A stretch of DNA of 46,246 nucleotides. It comes from a virus. The position numbers and the translations under genes were made by a program. The stretch lies in IMG/VR virus record IMGVR_UViG_3300043122_000020, positions 1 to 46,246 of that record. One strand, given 5' to 3'. The notes under the pieces were generated by a model that was given only the letters and a program-made list of their open reading frames with translations, was not told the origin of the DNA and did no database searches. Of the stretch, positions 1,537 to 9,622 are shown one piece after another; position 1 is the first letter of the stretch, and each line of letters starts with the position of its first letter.

Positions 1537-1839
1537 CTACGTTGATTTATAAAAACGACTCGCCCGGGACTTGTTGGTTGATACCGTAGTCCTGGACTCA
1601 CGTTCAGCTTGCGTCATGGGTTCGTATGCTTCAGTGACAACAGGATCATCAGGCAACAGGTCTCCGGTGCGTGCGAGCTTACGGTTGAAGCTGTCATCAC
1701 CGTTACCTTCTTTGCCCTCGATGGCGTTGCTCATCTCTCCACCGGGGTCGAGCGCACCAGCCATGTCGAAACCACCTTCACGTTTACCGAAGGCGTTGGC
1801 TGGGTCCGCTATGGTTTGAACTGCGTTGCTTGAGCACAT
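1537..1839 (-). CDS. Hypothetical late protein (100 aa)
   Basis: This encodes 100 hydrophilic residues with a Gly/Asp/Glu-rich middle and a basic C-terminus (SRASRFYKST). I do not recognise a family. There is no signal peptide or membrane segment. A strong ribosome site (GGGAGG) lies before ATG 1839, and the gene is packed between large terminase and the small pre-portal protein, so a head-assembly or packaging role is plausible by position only. Confidence 0.7.
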   Translation of the reverse strand: MCSSNAVQTIADPANAFGKREGGFDMAGALDPGGEMSNAIEGKEGNGDDSFNRKLARTGDLLPDDPVVTEAYEPMTQAERESRTTVSTNKSRASRFYKST

Positions 1840-1860
1840 AATTCCTCCCTGTGTACACTG

Positions 1861-3384
1861 CTACTCATCATAGTGTAACCTATCTAAAGGACTACGTGAA
1901 GACTTTTTATCAACAATTCCGTGACTTGTACGAATTTCGTCCCTGTGTAGCTGATGCCGCTTAGGGGCTACATGCTGAGCGAAGGTTAGGCACAAGGCGT
2001 CTGCCCAGTCTGGTGACGCCAGTCCTCGCGCCTTCATGTCCTTCTTGCGCTCCATGACTAGACGATCCTTGTCGTCATGTGAGTACATGCGATCCGTAAG
2101 CTCCTTCTCAAGCTGCGGGTGATCCTTGATGGCACCGCCACGGTACAACCACTCACGCATGCGCCCCCACATCTCCGCTGTCTTGTTACGGTACGCACGC
2201 TCATCTGAAGCCTTGGAGCCGAAGTTCACGTCGATGACGTTGTATCCGAGCTGCCTGAGTCTGTCGCCTATGGGACCACCCATCGCGCCCTCGTCAACAA
2301 ATGTGACGTCAGGTCTGTGTCTGTCCAGTATGTCGATGACCTTGCTCACGAACTGCATGCTGTCACGCGTCTTCTCACCGGGGATGCGGTATGTCTTTTC
2401 AGAACGCGCATCAGAGCCTCTGCGAAACTGGAGCATGTTGTTGTCTTCACCTCCACGGGCGCAGTCGATACCGAGAATCAGGGGATCTTCGGGATAGTAT
2501 CTTGCCTGACGCTGCTGTGCTTCGTGCACCACGTCATTCGGGATGTATTGCATGTCCCCAGCTTTAGGGAAGCGACCGAGCACACGAACACGCACGAAGT
2601 CGGAGTCGAGACCGTAGTCGTCGATCCACTCCTGCATGAGTGTTTTGTTCGGCATCTTGGCTGTGCGGGAGTCAATCTGCATGGTGATCCAACGGTGCTT
2701 TTGACCGTGGAATATCTCGTGGAATTTACCATGGTTGCGGGTAGGGTTGCCGAAGACGAAGTGCATCGGCTCACCGTCCGTCTTGCCACCTTCAGCTACC
2801 TCATAGATCTTGTCCGGTATGGCACTCCCCTCATCAAAGAGATAGAAGGGTGTAGACCCTGCTGCATGGAGACCGGCGAAGGATTCGGAGTTCTCCTCAC
2901 GACACGTCTGAGCGTCTACGCGCCACGTCTCAGCATGTCCGAGTCGATAGATGGACATGTTGCCGCGTCCGTTGTTGTACTCGAACCAGTGCCCGGTGAT
3001 GCACATCTTGCGCCACTTACCAAGTTCACCCCACGTCTTGGTGCGGAGCTGATCGGATGTGTTGGCAGTGACGACGCCTTTGCTATGCGGACGTGTAGAC
3101 TGAATAAACAAGATAATCCAGGCACTTAGAGCACTTTTACCTGTCCCATGCCCGGATGTGATACCGAACTGAATCGGCGGCACAGGAATGACACCATTGA
3201 AGCCCCGCCTCTTGATCTCCTCGCCCCAGCGTATCAGCACATCGCGCTGCCACTCGTCCGGGCCTAGCTGACCCTCCAGCTCCCCCTGACCCCATGGGAA
3301 CGCCCACATGACCCAGCCGAAAGGGTCAGCGTAGAAACTGGCGCAGTCATCAGCGATCTGCATGTCAACGTCGGTCACTTCCAT
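1861..3384 (-). CDS. terL: Terminase large subunit (packaging ATPase-nuclease)
   Basis: This is the motor that translocates DNA into the prohead and cuts it. About 507 residues carry both domains. The ATPase has Walker A GHGTGKS near residue 79 and Walker B FYLFDEGS near 181. The RNase H-like nuclease begins with LILGIDCARGG near 303, followed by a second acidic cluster (VTFVDEGAMGG) and a last Asp in DWADALCL. I place the start at ATG 3384, which overlaps the TGA stop of small terminase (TGATG). A GTG at 3387 is the alternative. There is no clear ribosome site of its own, so translation is probably coupled to the small subunit. Confidence 0.95.
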   Translation of the reverse strand: MEVTDVDMQIADDCASFYADPFGWVMWAFPWGQGELEGQLGPDEWQRDVLIRWGEEIKRRGFNGVIPVPPIQFGITSGHGTGKSALSAWIILFIQSTRPHSKGVVTANTSDQLRTKTWGELGKWRKMCITGHWFEYNNGRGNMSIYRLGHAETWRVDAQTCREENSESFAGLHAAGSTPFYLFDEGSAIPDKIYEVAEGGKTDGEPMHFVFGNPTRNHGKFHEIFHGQKHRWITMQIDSRTAKMPNKTLMQEWIDDYGLDSDFVRVRVLGRFPKAGDMQYIPNDVVHEAQQRQARYYPEDPLILGIDCARGGEDNNMLQFRRGSDARSEKTYRIPGEKTRDSMQFVSKVIDILDRHRPDVTFVDEGAMGGPIGDRLRQLGYNVIDVNFGSKASDERAYRNKTAEMWGRMREWLYRGGAIKDHPQLEKELTDRMYSHDDKDRLVMERKKDMKARGLASPDWADALCLTFAQHVAPKRHQLHRDEIRTSHGIVDKKSSRSPLDRLHYDE

Positions 3385-3941
3385 CACATAAAGTCCATGT
3401 TCTGTTTAACTTCTTTCGCACGACGCCGACCCTCAATGAGTCGCTGAGTCAGATCCTTATCGGTGCTGATCTCCAGCTTATCGGCAAACGCCTTAACGTT
3501 GACGTGCTTGCCCAGCATCTCCAGAACCTTGAGTCTATCGAGTACCCTGAGCTTCTTGACGCGTCCTGTCTCCTCACGGTCTTCACCGCGACCAGAGTAC
3601 GTCGTATCAACATCAATGCTGGTAGTCATCTTGCGCCATATCTCCGGCCACTCATGCACAGGCAGCAGGTCGCCTGTGTCGAAGTCGTAGAGGTCAGCAA
3701 TGTCAGCGTTGAACATCTGAGCAAGTTGCACCAGCACCCATTCAGCATCAACCTTGGCACGCTCCTCACGTTCACTCATAAGCTCCTGGATGGCGGTCTG
3801 CACGTCAGGTTCCTTGAGCCATTCCGACGCTAAAGACGTGCTGATGTTGGCACGCCTTGCCGCCCTGCTCATTATGAGATCTTTGATATACTCGATGCAG
3901 AAGTATCGCCTACGTGCATCAAGATCATATAGTTTCTGCAT
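3384..3941 (-). CDS. terS: Terminase small subunit
   Basis: This encodes 185 residues with an N-terminal helix-turn-helix region (about 10-50, including SRAARRANISTSLASEWL) that would recognise the packaging start, followed by helical oligomerisation sequence and a basic tail. Its position directly before and overlapping large terminase supports the call. The start at ATG 3941 lies inside a 23-codon upstream reading frame that has a stronger ribosome site than its own (GCGAGG), so expression may depend on re-initiation. The DUF1804/Terminase_2-type affiliation is an inference from the fold pattern, not a strong motif match. Confidence 0.85.
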   Translation of the reverse strand: MQKLYDLDARRRYFCIEYIKDLIMSRAARRANISTSLASEWLKEPDVQTAIQELMSEREERAKVDAEWVLVQLAQMFNADIADLYDFDTGDLLPVHEWPEIWRKMTTSIDVDTTYSGRGEDREETGRVKKLRVLDRLKVLEMLGKHVNVKAFADKLEISTDKDLTQRLIEGRRRAKEVKQNMDFM

Positions 3942-7090: not shown

Positions 7091-7500
7091 CACTGTATGA
7101 TCTAATCGAACAGGCAACCGTCACCGCCCGGGACAAAGGGTTCGACCTACAGCAGCATGAGACACAGCTTCTCCTCATCGCGTCAGAGATACGCGAAGCC
7201 CTACACCACGTCTCCCCTGGCACTGACGAAACGGTGCAGCGCATACGCAACAGCTTCATCGGTGACATGGCTTCACTTGAGTTGTACCGCTCTCATGTAG
7301 TAGCAATGGACACTGAGTATCAGGACACGTCAGAGATCCCCGAGATGCGCTCTGAGTACGTTGAGGAGTTGGCTGACGCTGTGATCAGGATATGCAGCTA
7401 CGCCGGGGGTAACGGGATGACCATTGAGCTGATACGTGCGATCAAAGACAAGATGGAGAAGAACGCCAAGCGTCCTGTGTTGCACGGGAAGGGGTTTTGA
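7087..7500 (+). CDS. MazG-like nucleotide pyrophosphohydrolase
   Basis: This encodes 137 residues of an all-alpha NTP-PPase. The metal-binding pattern ExxE...EExxD is present as E34-x2-E37 (ASEIREAL) and E93-E94-x2-D97 (EELADAVIRI), and the C-terminus reads KRPVLHGKGF, a pattern I associate with phage MazG-like proteins. It would hydrolyse (d)NTPs, either cleaning the nucleotide pool or lowering ppGpp signalling. The stop codon ends at 7500 and the methyltransferase locus begins in the same few bases. Confidence 0.85.
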   Translation: MTLYDLIEQATVTARDKGFDLQQHETQLLLIASEIREALHHVSPGTDETVQRIRNSFIGDMASLELYRSHVVAMDTEYQDTSEIPEMRSEYVEELADAVIRICSYAGGNGMTIELIRAIKDKMEKNAKRPVLHGKGF

Positions 7501-9143
7501 ATGTGGATACTACCAAGAAATCACCAACTGTCGTTTCTCTTTGCACAGGTTACGGAGGAATCGAACTTGGTCTTGAACGAGTGTTTGGAGCACTCGATGT
7601 TCTCGCTCATGTGGAGATCGAAGCCTTCGCAATCGAAAACCTGGTTGCAAAGATGGAAGCGGGAAGAATGGTTCCGGCACCTATCTGGACGGATGTTAAA
7701 ACCCTCCCAGTGGAGCCATTTCGAGGACGTGTTGACATCATCACTGGCGGATATCCTTGCCAACCCTTCAGCAGTGCAGGGAAGCGTGGAGGAGCAGACG
7801 ACCCCCGTCACTTGTGGCCGTACATACGACAATCCGTCCGAGACATTAAGCCAAGATACTGTTTTTTTGAAAACGTCGAAGGACATATATCGCTTGGACT
7901 CTCCACAGTTATCAGCGACTTGGAAGAAGATGGTTACACAACAACGTGGGGAATATTCAGCGCGGAGGAAGTCGGCGCTCCACACCGCAGAAAAAGAGTG
8001 TTTATCTTGGGCCACCGTGAACACGATGGACTACATGGACTGCCGGACACCGGAGGGCGTTGTAAAGCAAGCCACCGGTGCAAGGAAGGGGAGGACAAGG
8101 CCAGCGAACCTACGGGAGCAGGTCGACCCGGTAACGTGCGAGATATACAAACAGCAGAACTGGCCTACGGCATCGGCAAGGGATCACAAGGACACGCCAG
8201 GGATGGCGCAGGAAGCAACCAACAAGGACGGATCGCACAGGAACAGAACGGATCAACTTGCCCGGGCGGTCTACAACACTGGCCAGCCCGACCAGGAGAA
8301 CCCCAGCACGAATGGGAGCCACCAAGAGTCGTGGAGAACCCCGTCAACGTGCGAAAATGTTGGGGGGCAAATGTCGGAAGTGGAAGCGCGCGAAAACAAC
8401 AGGACTGTCAAGCTGAGGTATCAGGTGGAACAGGCAAAGATAGGAAGCCAATCGAGTTCCAGACTCAACCCACGATGGGTTTGCACACTAATGAATATAC
8501 CGATTATGTGGACGGAGGTTTAAACAATGGCAACTCCGATAAAGATTGCGCCAGAAAAGTACTGCAAAAATTGTGGGAAGAAATTGTATCGCAAGAGGTA
8601 TGGCAAGCGGCTGGAGGATATGTCGGTGTTCTTGCGGAGACAGTATTGCAGTCAGGATTGTGCATGGACAGCTTCACGCAAAGAATCTGTTTCTTTGTCT
8701 GGTGCGTACAAACGGGCAACCAAGCTAAAGGGTTTGGTCTGTCAAGAATGTGGGGCAACGACCCTGCTTGGGATACACCACAAGGACAAGAACCCACGGA
8801 ACAACTCAAAAGAGAACTTGCTTACGCTTTGTGCCAGTTGTCATACGAAATTGCACTGGAGCGAGGGCAAGAAGCCGTGGAAACCCCCGGGAACCTGCAC
8901 TATATGTGGAGCGAGTGGGAAAATAAAGCGTGGGATGTGTCAGAAACACTACCAGAGATGGCAAAAGTATGGCGATCCACTTTTGACGAAGCGTTTAGGC
9001 AAAAAAGGATCTATCCACAAGCAACCCATCAAGGACGAAATCGCACCGACGAGCTGCGGCTGTTGGGAAACGGAGTTGTGCCAGCTACAGCAGAACGAGC
9101 GTGGCGCGTGTTGTATGGGAGACTCAATAAAGGAGAATACTGA
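7497..9143 (+). CDS. DNA cytosine-5 methyltransferase (Dcm type)
   Basis: This encodes 548 residues. Catalytic motifs are clear: SAM-binding LCTGYGGIELG (15-25), PCQPFS with the catalytic Cys88, FENV (124-127), HRRKRVFI (163-170), and the C-terminal GNGVVPATAERAW (about 524-536). The long region between 175 and 515 is the target-recognition part. The gene probably protects phage DNA against host restriction. The start is uncertain: TTG 7497, or GTG 7503, which is better spaced from GGGAAGGGG. Unusually, the +1 frame is also open across almost the whole gene (7501-8523 and 8527-9153) and encodes an HNH endonuclease in its second half. Confidence 0.92.
   Translation: MNVDTTKKSPTVVSLCTGYGGIELGLERVFGALDVLAHVEIEAFAIENLVAKMEAGRMVPAPIWTDVKTLPVEPFRGRVDIITGGYPCQPFSSAGKRGGADDPRHLWPYIRQSVRDIKPRYCFFENVEGHISLGLSTVISDLEEDGYTTTWGIFSAEEVGAPHRRKRVFILGHREHDGLHGLPDTGGRCKASHRCKEGEDKASEPTGAGRPGNVRDIQTAELAYGIGKGSQGHARDGAGSNQQGRIAQEQNGSTCPGGLQHWPARPGEPQHEWEPPRVVENPVNVRKCWGANVGSGSARKQQDCQAEVSGGTGKDRKPIEFQTQPTMGLHTNEYTDYVDGGLNNGNSDKDCARKVLQKLWEEIVSQEVWQAAGGYVGVLAETVLQSGLCMDSFTQRICFFVWCVQTGNQAKGFGLSRMWGNDPAWDTPQGQEPTEQLKRELAYALCQLSYEIALERGQEAVETPGNLHYMWSEWENKAWDVSETLPEMAKVWRSTFDEAFRQKRIYPQATHQGRNRTDELRLLGNGVVPATAERAWRVLYGRLNKGEY
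7501..8523 (+). CDS. Overlapping +1 frame with methyltransferase-like target domain
   Basis: This is a 340-codon frame lying wholly inside the methyltransferase gene in the +1 frame. It starts at ATG 7501, directly after the MazG-like stop and ideally spaced from GGGAAGGGG. Its second half looks like C5-methyltransferase target-recognition text: NWPTASARDHKDTPG near residue 220, DGSHRNRTDQLARAVYN near 245, and LNPRWVCTLMNIPIMW at the end (322-337), comparable to the common LNPxWVExLMGxPxGW. The first half has no recognisable domain. It may be a separate protein, the product of frameshifting from the main frame, or a constrained shadow frame. Confidence 0.4.
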   Translation: MWILPRNHQLSFLFAQVTEESNLVLNECLEHSMFSLMWRSKPSQSKTWLQRWKREEWFRHLSGRMLKPSQWSHFEDVLTSSLADILANPSAVQGSVEEQTTPVTCGRTYDNPSETLSQDTVFLKTSKDIYRLDSPQLSATWKKMVTQQRGEYSARRKSALHTAEKECLSWATVNTMDYMDCRTPEGVVKQATGARKGRTRPANLREQVDPVTCEIYKQQNWPTASARDHKDTPGMAQEATNKDGSHRNRTDQLARAVYNTGQPDQENPSTNGSHQESWRTPSTCENVGGQMSEVEARENNRTVKLRYQVEQAKIGSQSSSRLNPRWVCTLMNIPIMWTEV

Positions 9144-9153
9144 TCATGTCTAA
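8527..9153 (+). CDS. HNH endonuclease nested in the methyltransferase gene
   Basis: This encodes 208 residues in the +1 frame of the methyltransferase gene. Features in order: zinc pairs CKNCG (13-16) and C41/C45, then the HNH core CQECG (72-75), IHHKDKNPRNN (83-93), ENLLTLCASCH (96-106), then a C-terminal zinc-knuckle-like CQKHYQRWQKYGDPLL. GGAGG at 8514-8518 lies 8 bases before ATG 8527, so it has its own initiation signal. It probably nicks or cuts DNA, either as a homing enzyme or in packaging. About the last 35 residues overlap motif X of the methyltransferase and may not fold. Both frames look protein-coding, which is rare. Confidence 0.8.
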   Translation: MATPIKIAPEKYCKNCGKKLYRKRYGKRLEDMSVFLRRQYCSQDCAWTASRKESVSLSGAYKRATKLKGLVCQECGATTLLGIHHKDKNPRNNSKENLLTLCASCHTKLHWSEGKKPWKPPGTCTICGASGKIKRGMCQKHYQRWQKYGDPLLTKRLGKKGSIHKQPIKDEIAPTSCGCWETELCQLQQNERGACCMGDSIKENTDHV

Positions 9154-9622
9154 GCTCATCATCTGCGAGTCTTGCGGGAAGAAGAAAAACCTGGCAGCCA
9201 AGGGATTGTGCATGGCGTGTTACCAGAAGGACCGTAAACACATCTACAACAGACGCGAGTACGGCACCTGCGCCCTTGGTACTCCTGATGTACACGTCAC
9301 CATCCCCTGCATGCGTTGTGGCTCGAAGCTGGACGCACGGGTGCCTGAAGGTGAGGAGCATAAGGTGGACATGCGCCGCCTGTGCGCCAAGTGCAAGACT
9401 GTGGACACTGAGGAGGGGTTCCTGGGTCACAGGGAGATGCAAGCAGCCGAGCAACGCCGAGGTCCTGATCCGCATAAGCGATGGGTGAGGGAAGAGGTGA
9501 AGGTGTTTAAGCCTGGCGACAAAGGGTTCGCTGAGCGAGCGTCACAGTGTACACCACCGAGTGAGATTAAAGGTGTTACAGACAATCAATCACTACCACA
9601 CCACAACAAGGGAGGATTTTGA
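9146..9622 (+). CDS. Zinc-ribbon-like protein (158 aa)
   Basis: This encodes 158 residues with four CxxC pairs: CESCG and CMACY in the first 25 residues, then CMRCG and CAKCKT at about 55-90. This suggests two zinc-binding units followed by a charged tail. No enzyme motif is seen. AAAGGAG precedes ATG 9146 and the start overlaps the HNH frame by 8 bases. It is one of several small Cys-rich proteins in this block. A nucleic-acid-binding role is a guess. Confidence 0.7.
   Translation: MSKLIICESCGKKKNLAAKGLCMACYQKDRKHIYNRREYGTCALGTPDVHVTIPCMRCGSKLDARVPEGEEHKVDMRRLCAKCKTVDTEEGFLGHREMQAAEQRRGPDPHKRWVREEVKVFKPGDKGFAERASQCTPPSEIKGVTDNQSLPHHNKGGF

Follow-up and report, generated by a model that had tools for sequence, protein, structure and literature searches.

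It is usually assumed that homing genes depend on introns, inteins or intergenic sites, and the HNH genes of phages are often located in group I introns. For the cytosine methyltransferase M.EcoHK31I, the gene of the second polypeptide is nested within the first gene in a different reading frame. Part of the published account of this enzyme describes a large subunit with motifs I–VIII and X, while motif IX is on a second, smaller polypeptide (PMC3404938). The ShiLan element, which was described in 2025, is an out-of-frame HNH gene of mycobacteriophage methylases with a disjunct distribution (PMC11855218). Its host frame contains no stops and no splicing element was detected, and the host-frame product of the insert was predicted to be disordered (PMC11855218). 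No ribosome site was found for the hidden nuclease, and its translation route was left open (PMC11855218). The out-of-frame cases in that report were mainly from mycobacteriophages (PMC11855218); a later announcement added a further case in cluster A1 phages (PMC12613952).

The window of this study, which is a whole IMG/VR virus record of 46,246 bases, carried a gene for a C5-cytosine methyltransferase whose +1 frame contained an HNH ORF. The methyltransferase frame and a second protein in its +1 frame are referred to here as alpha and beta, respectively (Table 1). The HNH ORF is probably an out-of-frame homing endonuclease gene, a selfish element that invaded the two-frame cytosine methyltransferase gene of a phage and left its reading frame intact. 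Similar to ShiLan, it is an HNH in a hidden frame of a phage methylase gene, without stops in the host frame and with a disjunct distribution, and the host-frame read-through of the insert is also predicted to be disordered. As for introns and inteins, Rfam gave no credible match and the alpha-frame segment had no Pfam domain. The methylase of ShiLan, gp65, has the amino-methyltransferase motif DPPY; by contrast, the host gene of the window is a C5-cytosine methyltransferase of PF00145 that already has two overlapping frames. Moreover, the HNH of ShiLan is in the host +2 frame with a GTG start and no ribosome-binding site, whereas that of the window is in the host +1 frame with its own Shine-Dalgarno sequence and an ATG start. 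A comparison of the two HNH proteins revealed no significant similarity (best E 0.47). Membership of the ShiLan family by descent was rejected on these three grounds, i.e., the E value, the frame and the type of methyltransferase. Judged by sequence, the element of the window is thus ShiLan-like in kind but not a homolog. What is new compared with ShiLan is the host gene family, the frame, the HNH subfamily, the three coding layers and the visible ribosome site.

Table 1. Positions in the window of the methyltransferase frames, the HNH gene and the inserted segment.
Feature	Positions	Strand	Basis
Alpha, C5-cytosine methyltransferase large subunit	7497..9143	+	PF00145, phrog_363, AlphaFold/Foldseek
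Beta, putative second methyltransferase protein, +1 frame	7501..8523	+	phrog_1008; same-frame protein in relatives
Overlapping starts ATGTG (ATG of beta, GTG of alpha)	7501..7505	+	AATGTGGATAC conserved in 28 loci
Putative motif IX of beta, left flank of insertion site	8464..8520	+	Invariant residues in 26 beta sequences
Shine-Dalgarno GGAGG of HNH gene, within the end of beta	8514..8518	+	8 nt before ATG 8527
Inserted segment compared with empty relatives	8515..9038	+	Alignment with empty sites of L047, L060, L070 and L103
HNH endonuclease with zinc-binding Cys pairs	8527..9153	+	Motifs, Pfam, PHROG, alignment with empty relatives
Alpha-frame read-through of HNH segment	8528..9038	+	No stops, low conservation, predicted disorder
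Motif X of alpha (ELRLLGNGVVP)	9051..9083	+	GN.V.P invariant in 22 alpha sequences

The HNH ORF encoded 208 amino acid residues and possessed both the HNH catalytic motif and zinc-binding cysteines. Its core was IHHKDKN...ENLLTLCASCHTKLHW, and five CxxC-type pairs plus CQKH were found. It matched the Pfam HNH model with 21.8 bits (cutoff 21.4) and PHROG HNH families with E values down to 7e-14. It was located between motif IX of beta and motif X of alpha, and its final ~35 codons overlay the former tail of beta and motif X of alpha. The initial annotation had reported an HNH gene in the +1 frame of an open methyltransferase frame, with a GGAGG ribosome site of its own and with motif X at the end of the methyltransferase frame. 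The coordinates and motifs were correct, the ribosome site was found, and motif X of alpha, LRLLGNGVVPATAERAW, formed the very end of the protein. The extent given for the overlap was right for the HNH part but not for its start at position 8527, as the +1 frame was already open from 7501 across the whole alpha gene. Directly 3' of alpha, a small Cys-rich ORF was also found at 9146–9622; it weakly resembled a zinc ribbon (Zn_ribbon_Nudix, 25.3 bits, slightly below the cutoff).

Residues 11–180 of alpha matched PF00145 (E = 6e-35), and alpha also matched phrog_363 (1e-55). The best Foldseek matches of its AlphaFold model were DNMT2, M.HhaI and M.HaeIII. Alpha possessed motifs I–VIII and X without motif IX, and it may start at TTG 7497 or GTG 7503, of which the GTG is the more likely. 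Beta overlapped alpha from its first codon onward. Its N-terminus was MWILPKNY-like, while alpha begins with (V)DTT. Beta matched phrog_1008 (E = 3e-14), as did +1-frame ORFs of the phages C75C1, Cr-LKS3, Tunturi_1, and Bloom; for the latter three, a gene in the frame of beta has already been annotated. A +1-frame beta protein was present in 38 of the 42 alpha genes examined, and a plasmid search with beta returned four distant matches. The phrog_1008 protein was widespread in the +1 frame of phage C5 methyltransferases, often from a shared ATGTG start, and the low-complexity middle of the annotated phage methyltransferase was largely a shadow of this protein.

The C-terminus of beta was the motif IX-like LNPRWVCTLMNIPIMWTEV. 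Among 26 relatives, the LNPxWVExLMGxPxGW that ends beta was invariant or nearly so, and residues L322, N323, W326, V327, L330, M331, and W337 were invariant in the 26 beta sequences. This motif contained WVC in the HNH-bearing clade and WVE in the empty relatives. Because the same motif was in frame with motif X in L025, L005, and L023, the terminal motif of beta is probably the methyltransferase motif IX that is missing from alpha. Similar to M.EcoHK31I, therefore, alpha carries motifs I–VIII and X and motif IX is on a polypeptide of an alternative frame, a likeness of layout. Different from M.EcoHK31I, the gene is of phage origin, beta (270–410 amino acid residues) starts where alpha does, and motifs IX and X are separated by an inserted HNH gene. 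Other arrangements were also observed. In L005 and L023, one frame encoded both the motif IX domain and motif X, and the HNH occupied the +1 frame relative to it; the catalytic N-terminal half of L005 was encoded in a further, different frame. In L053, L091, L096, and L119, alpha stopped at about 209–223 amino acid residues, before motif X, and in L053 the beta frame ran on to motif IX, which suggests a non-overlapping split of the enzyme.

Of 42 alpha genes, 36 had an open beta frame across their first 495 nt, while codon permutation predicted ~0.6. Likewise, in 37 of 38 genes, no stop interrupted the alpha frame within the half in which beta is conserved (1.3 expected by codon permutation). 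With a simple counting method in place of a full likelihood model, the omega values of alpha in the N-terminal half were 0.16–0.33, i.e., strong purifying selection. Those of beta were 0.37 and 0.77, compared with 0.86 and 1.35 for the third frame, i.e., selection weaker than on alpha. The stronger two-sided overprinting of this gene is found upstream, between alpha and beta, and not between the HNH and alpha. Beta is probably translated. Its AlphaFold model, for which the alignments, as for the other structure predictions, were built from viral-contig and genome-contig loci, had a mean pLDDT of 49.8, and the motif IX helix alone reached about 78. Since beta possesses a conserved start of its own, programmed frameshifting that joins the N-terminal half of alpha to beta need not be invoked, though it may occur.

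When the HNH codons of the window were permuted within amino acids, the alpha frame acquired 7.9 stops on average, and none of 2000 permutations left it open; the other alternative frame contained 5 stops, compared with 5.4 expected. Across the HNH, no alpha-frame stop was found in 22 of the 24 loci of this HNH family (the window, L002–L005, L012–L025, L045, L127, and L128; L006 is the same contig as L024). Codon permutation predicted 3–11 stops for these loci (P ≤ 0.012 in each of the 22, 0/2000 in 18). The remaining two, L026 and L027, had one alpha-frame stop and an HNH that was frameshifted after the HNH core; decay of these copies or errors in sequencing are the presumed cause. Those HNH relatives that lie outside methyltransferases (e.g., L028, L031–L033, and L040–L043), which match the HNH core only and differ in length and subfamily, contained 5–10 stops, as predicted. 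Codon permutation thus ruled out an alpha frame that is open by chance. The HNH/methyltransferase overlap is real, and the overprinting of the two genes that had been proposed for this DNA is supported.

The stop-free host frame of these 22 loci also bears on whether alpha is read through at all. An intron would need no open host frame, and the explanation that the segment is an intron, or is bypassed by frameshifting, is extremely improbable even though HNH genes of phages are frequently borne by group I introns. The insert is filled by HNH coding sequence and retained flanks, and the Rfam search at E ≤ 1 gave only a spurious snoRNA, with no group I intron RNA core around the HNH ORF. The intron reading was dropped for lack of a credible Rfam match. 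Similar to the HNH homing endonucleases of the I-HmuI type in group I introns, the HNH of the window combines an HNH with zinc/DNA-binding regions, and insertion polymorphism in a conserved host gene was found. Different from them, it is without an intron, and the frame of the host gene is simply kept open.

The stretch spanning motif IX through motif X, both included, measured 113–149 nt in HNH-free relatives and 620 nt in the window. Compared with L047, the closest relative (79% identical in alpha), the net gain was 507 nt, with about 17–25 nt replaced. As 507 is a multiple of three, both frames were kept. A precise insertion was visible against the empty sites of L047, L060, L070, L094, L095, and L103. 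The HNH was present in L013 and absent from the collinear L103 (83–90% identical on both sides) and L108 (86–93%), and its presence and absence among close relatives at one site is disjunct. In L025 and L127, the insertion was before motif IX; thus, the site is not universal. The HNH blocks of L015, L016, and L017 were 94–96% identical, compared with 77–87% for the N-terminal parts of alpha, and their target-recognition parts were not alignable. The higher identity of the HNH blocks could partly reflect double coding constraint and alone is no proof of transfer.

The full-length members of this HNH family were all found within C5 methyltransferases, and those outside methyltransferases were distant, partial relatives only. 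The loci with a stop-free host frame include Staphylococcus phage CUB-EPI_14, Komagataeibacter phage phiKX1 and a Dehalococcoidales MAG, and a scan of genome contigs gave a single convincing bacterial locus, L045. That one HNH subfamily is constantly found with C5 methyltransferases could also mean that the two form an R-M or Vsr-like pair, in which the HNH serves as the cognate nuclease for restriction or repair and the overlap ensures joint inheritance. However, most related phage methyltransferases are without an HNH at the same site, collinear phages differ in its presence, and the same HNH sits in methyltransferases with differing target-recognition regions. Restriction and defence models gave generic HNH-core matches only. 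A cognate nuclease is thus quite unlikely, and insertion of a homing endonuclease gene is preferred. Two further HNH arrangements were noticed. In L006/L024, the N-terminal half of the methyltransferase is interrupted by a second, different HNH ORF (about 1700–2500). The GAAHKRNRWWLL coding region flanks this ORF on either side, as a duplicated target would. In L129 (Mycobacterium phage MKC-IRE-02), positions 2501–2704 encode a sequence with 35% identity to the HNH of the window, antisense within the CDS 1836–3389. This CDS, on the other strand, encodes a DPPY-type methyltransferase with an uninterrupted frame; the arrangement may be an antisense variant of the hidden-nuclease strategy.

It had also been claimed that neither frame is a passive shadow and that two DNA-acting enzymes overprint each other. 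In its full form, this means that alpha across the HNH is a functional domain, e.g., a target-recognition part, with both products selected. The stop-free alpha frame described above is consistent with such two-sided overprinting. Moreover, in close pairs, omega of alpha was 0.35 (0.24–0.56) at HNH-synonymous sites, compared with 1.74 (1.00–4.64) for the third-frame control, and 13 alpha-synonymous third-position changes were counted where about 4.7 were expected. At HNH-nonsynonymous sites, however, omega of alpha was 0.89 (0.68–1.15), like that of the control frame (0.91). In 16 distant pairs, the similarity of alpha had z values of −1.1 to 2.2, mostly near 0.5, under a null in which the HNH protein is conserved and alpha stops are banned; thus, it was not above what HNH conservation and an open frame give. 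The AlphaFold model of alpha was confident for about residues 5–180 (the catalytic domain) and 520–543 (the motif X helix), while residues 183–519, which include the shadow of the HNH, had pLDDT < 50 almost throughout. In addition, the whole segment is missing from the empty relatives.

The distant-pair null rejected a conserved domain of alpha over the HNH, and true two-sided overprinting there is improbable. Per-frame conservation agreed with the initial annotation at the HNH-synonymous sites of close pairs, where alpha is weakly constrained, and did not agree with it in distant pairs, where no excess similarity was found. That neither frame is a passive shadow was not borne out over the HNH, given the distant-pair result, the omega of 0.89 and the low pLDDT. 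For the same reasons, together with the weak constraint and the HNH-free relatives, the locus is one inserted enzyme inside an open frame and not two co-evolved ones: alpha is kept open and weakly constrained, but the HNH is an insertion of ~507 nt that relatives do not have. Over the HNH segment, alpha is best read as a linker that is free of stops and under mild constraint but otherwise a shadow, and the weak extra constraint in close pairs leaves room for some function of the read-through.

GGAGG or AGGAG was found 4–17 nt upstream of the HNH start, the codon of which was picked by the analyst for each locus, in 9 of 20 nested loci, compared with 1.9% of internal ATGs (P = 5e-11). A strong Shine-Dalgarno sequence was missing from the other 11, including the L012–L017 group. 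In L012–L017, reinitiation is possible, because the HNH start follows within a few dozen bases after the stop of beta. These start contexts suggest that the HNH is translated. The visible ribosome site of the HNH bears on the question that was left open for ShiLan, i.e., how a hidden nuclease is translated.

In the proposed mechanism, the HNH gene inserted in the +1 frame right behind the DNA that encodes motif IX of beta, and translation of the nuclease would begin at its own start codon or depend on reinitiation once beta has terminated. The nuclease would then cleave alleles without an HNH in the conserved DNA of motifs IX/X, and the HNH gene would be copied into the cut allele during repair. 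Alpha would read through the insert as a floppy stretch of roughly 170 residues between the catalytic domain and motif X, so that neither an intron nor an intein would be needed. Alpha would still form a methyltransferase together with beta, which would provide motif IX and target recognition, and the enzyme probably tolerates the insert. Since the HNH is not homologous to that of ShiLan, homing is argued from distribution and not from family membership.

Many phage C5 methyltransferases are two-frame genes, and much annotated 'methyltransferase' sequence is therefore a shadow of a second protein. On balance, the HNH family seems to be restricted to the +1 frame of C5-cytosine methyltransferase genes and to represent a third route, besides introns and inteins, by which a homing gene can enter coding DNA and leave it unbroken. 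If this is true, alpha, beta and the HNH would be three translated proteins from about 1.65 kb. The hidden-nuclease strategy of ShiLan probably arose separately in the cytosine methyltransferases of many phages. The natural empty and filled alleles make homing directly testable.
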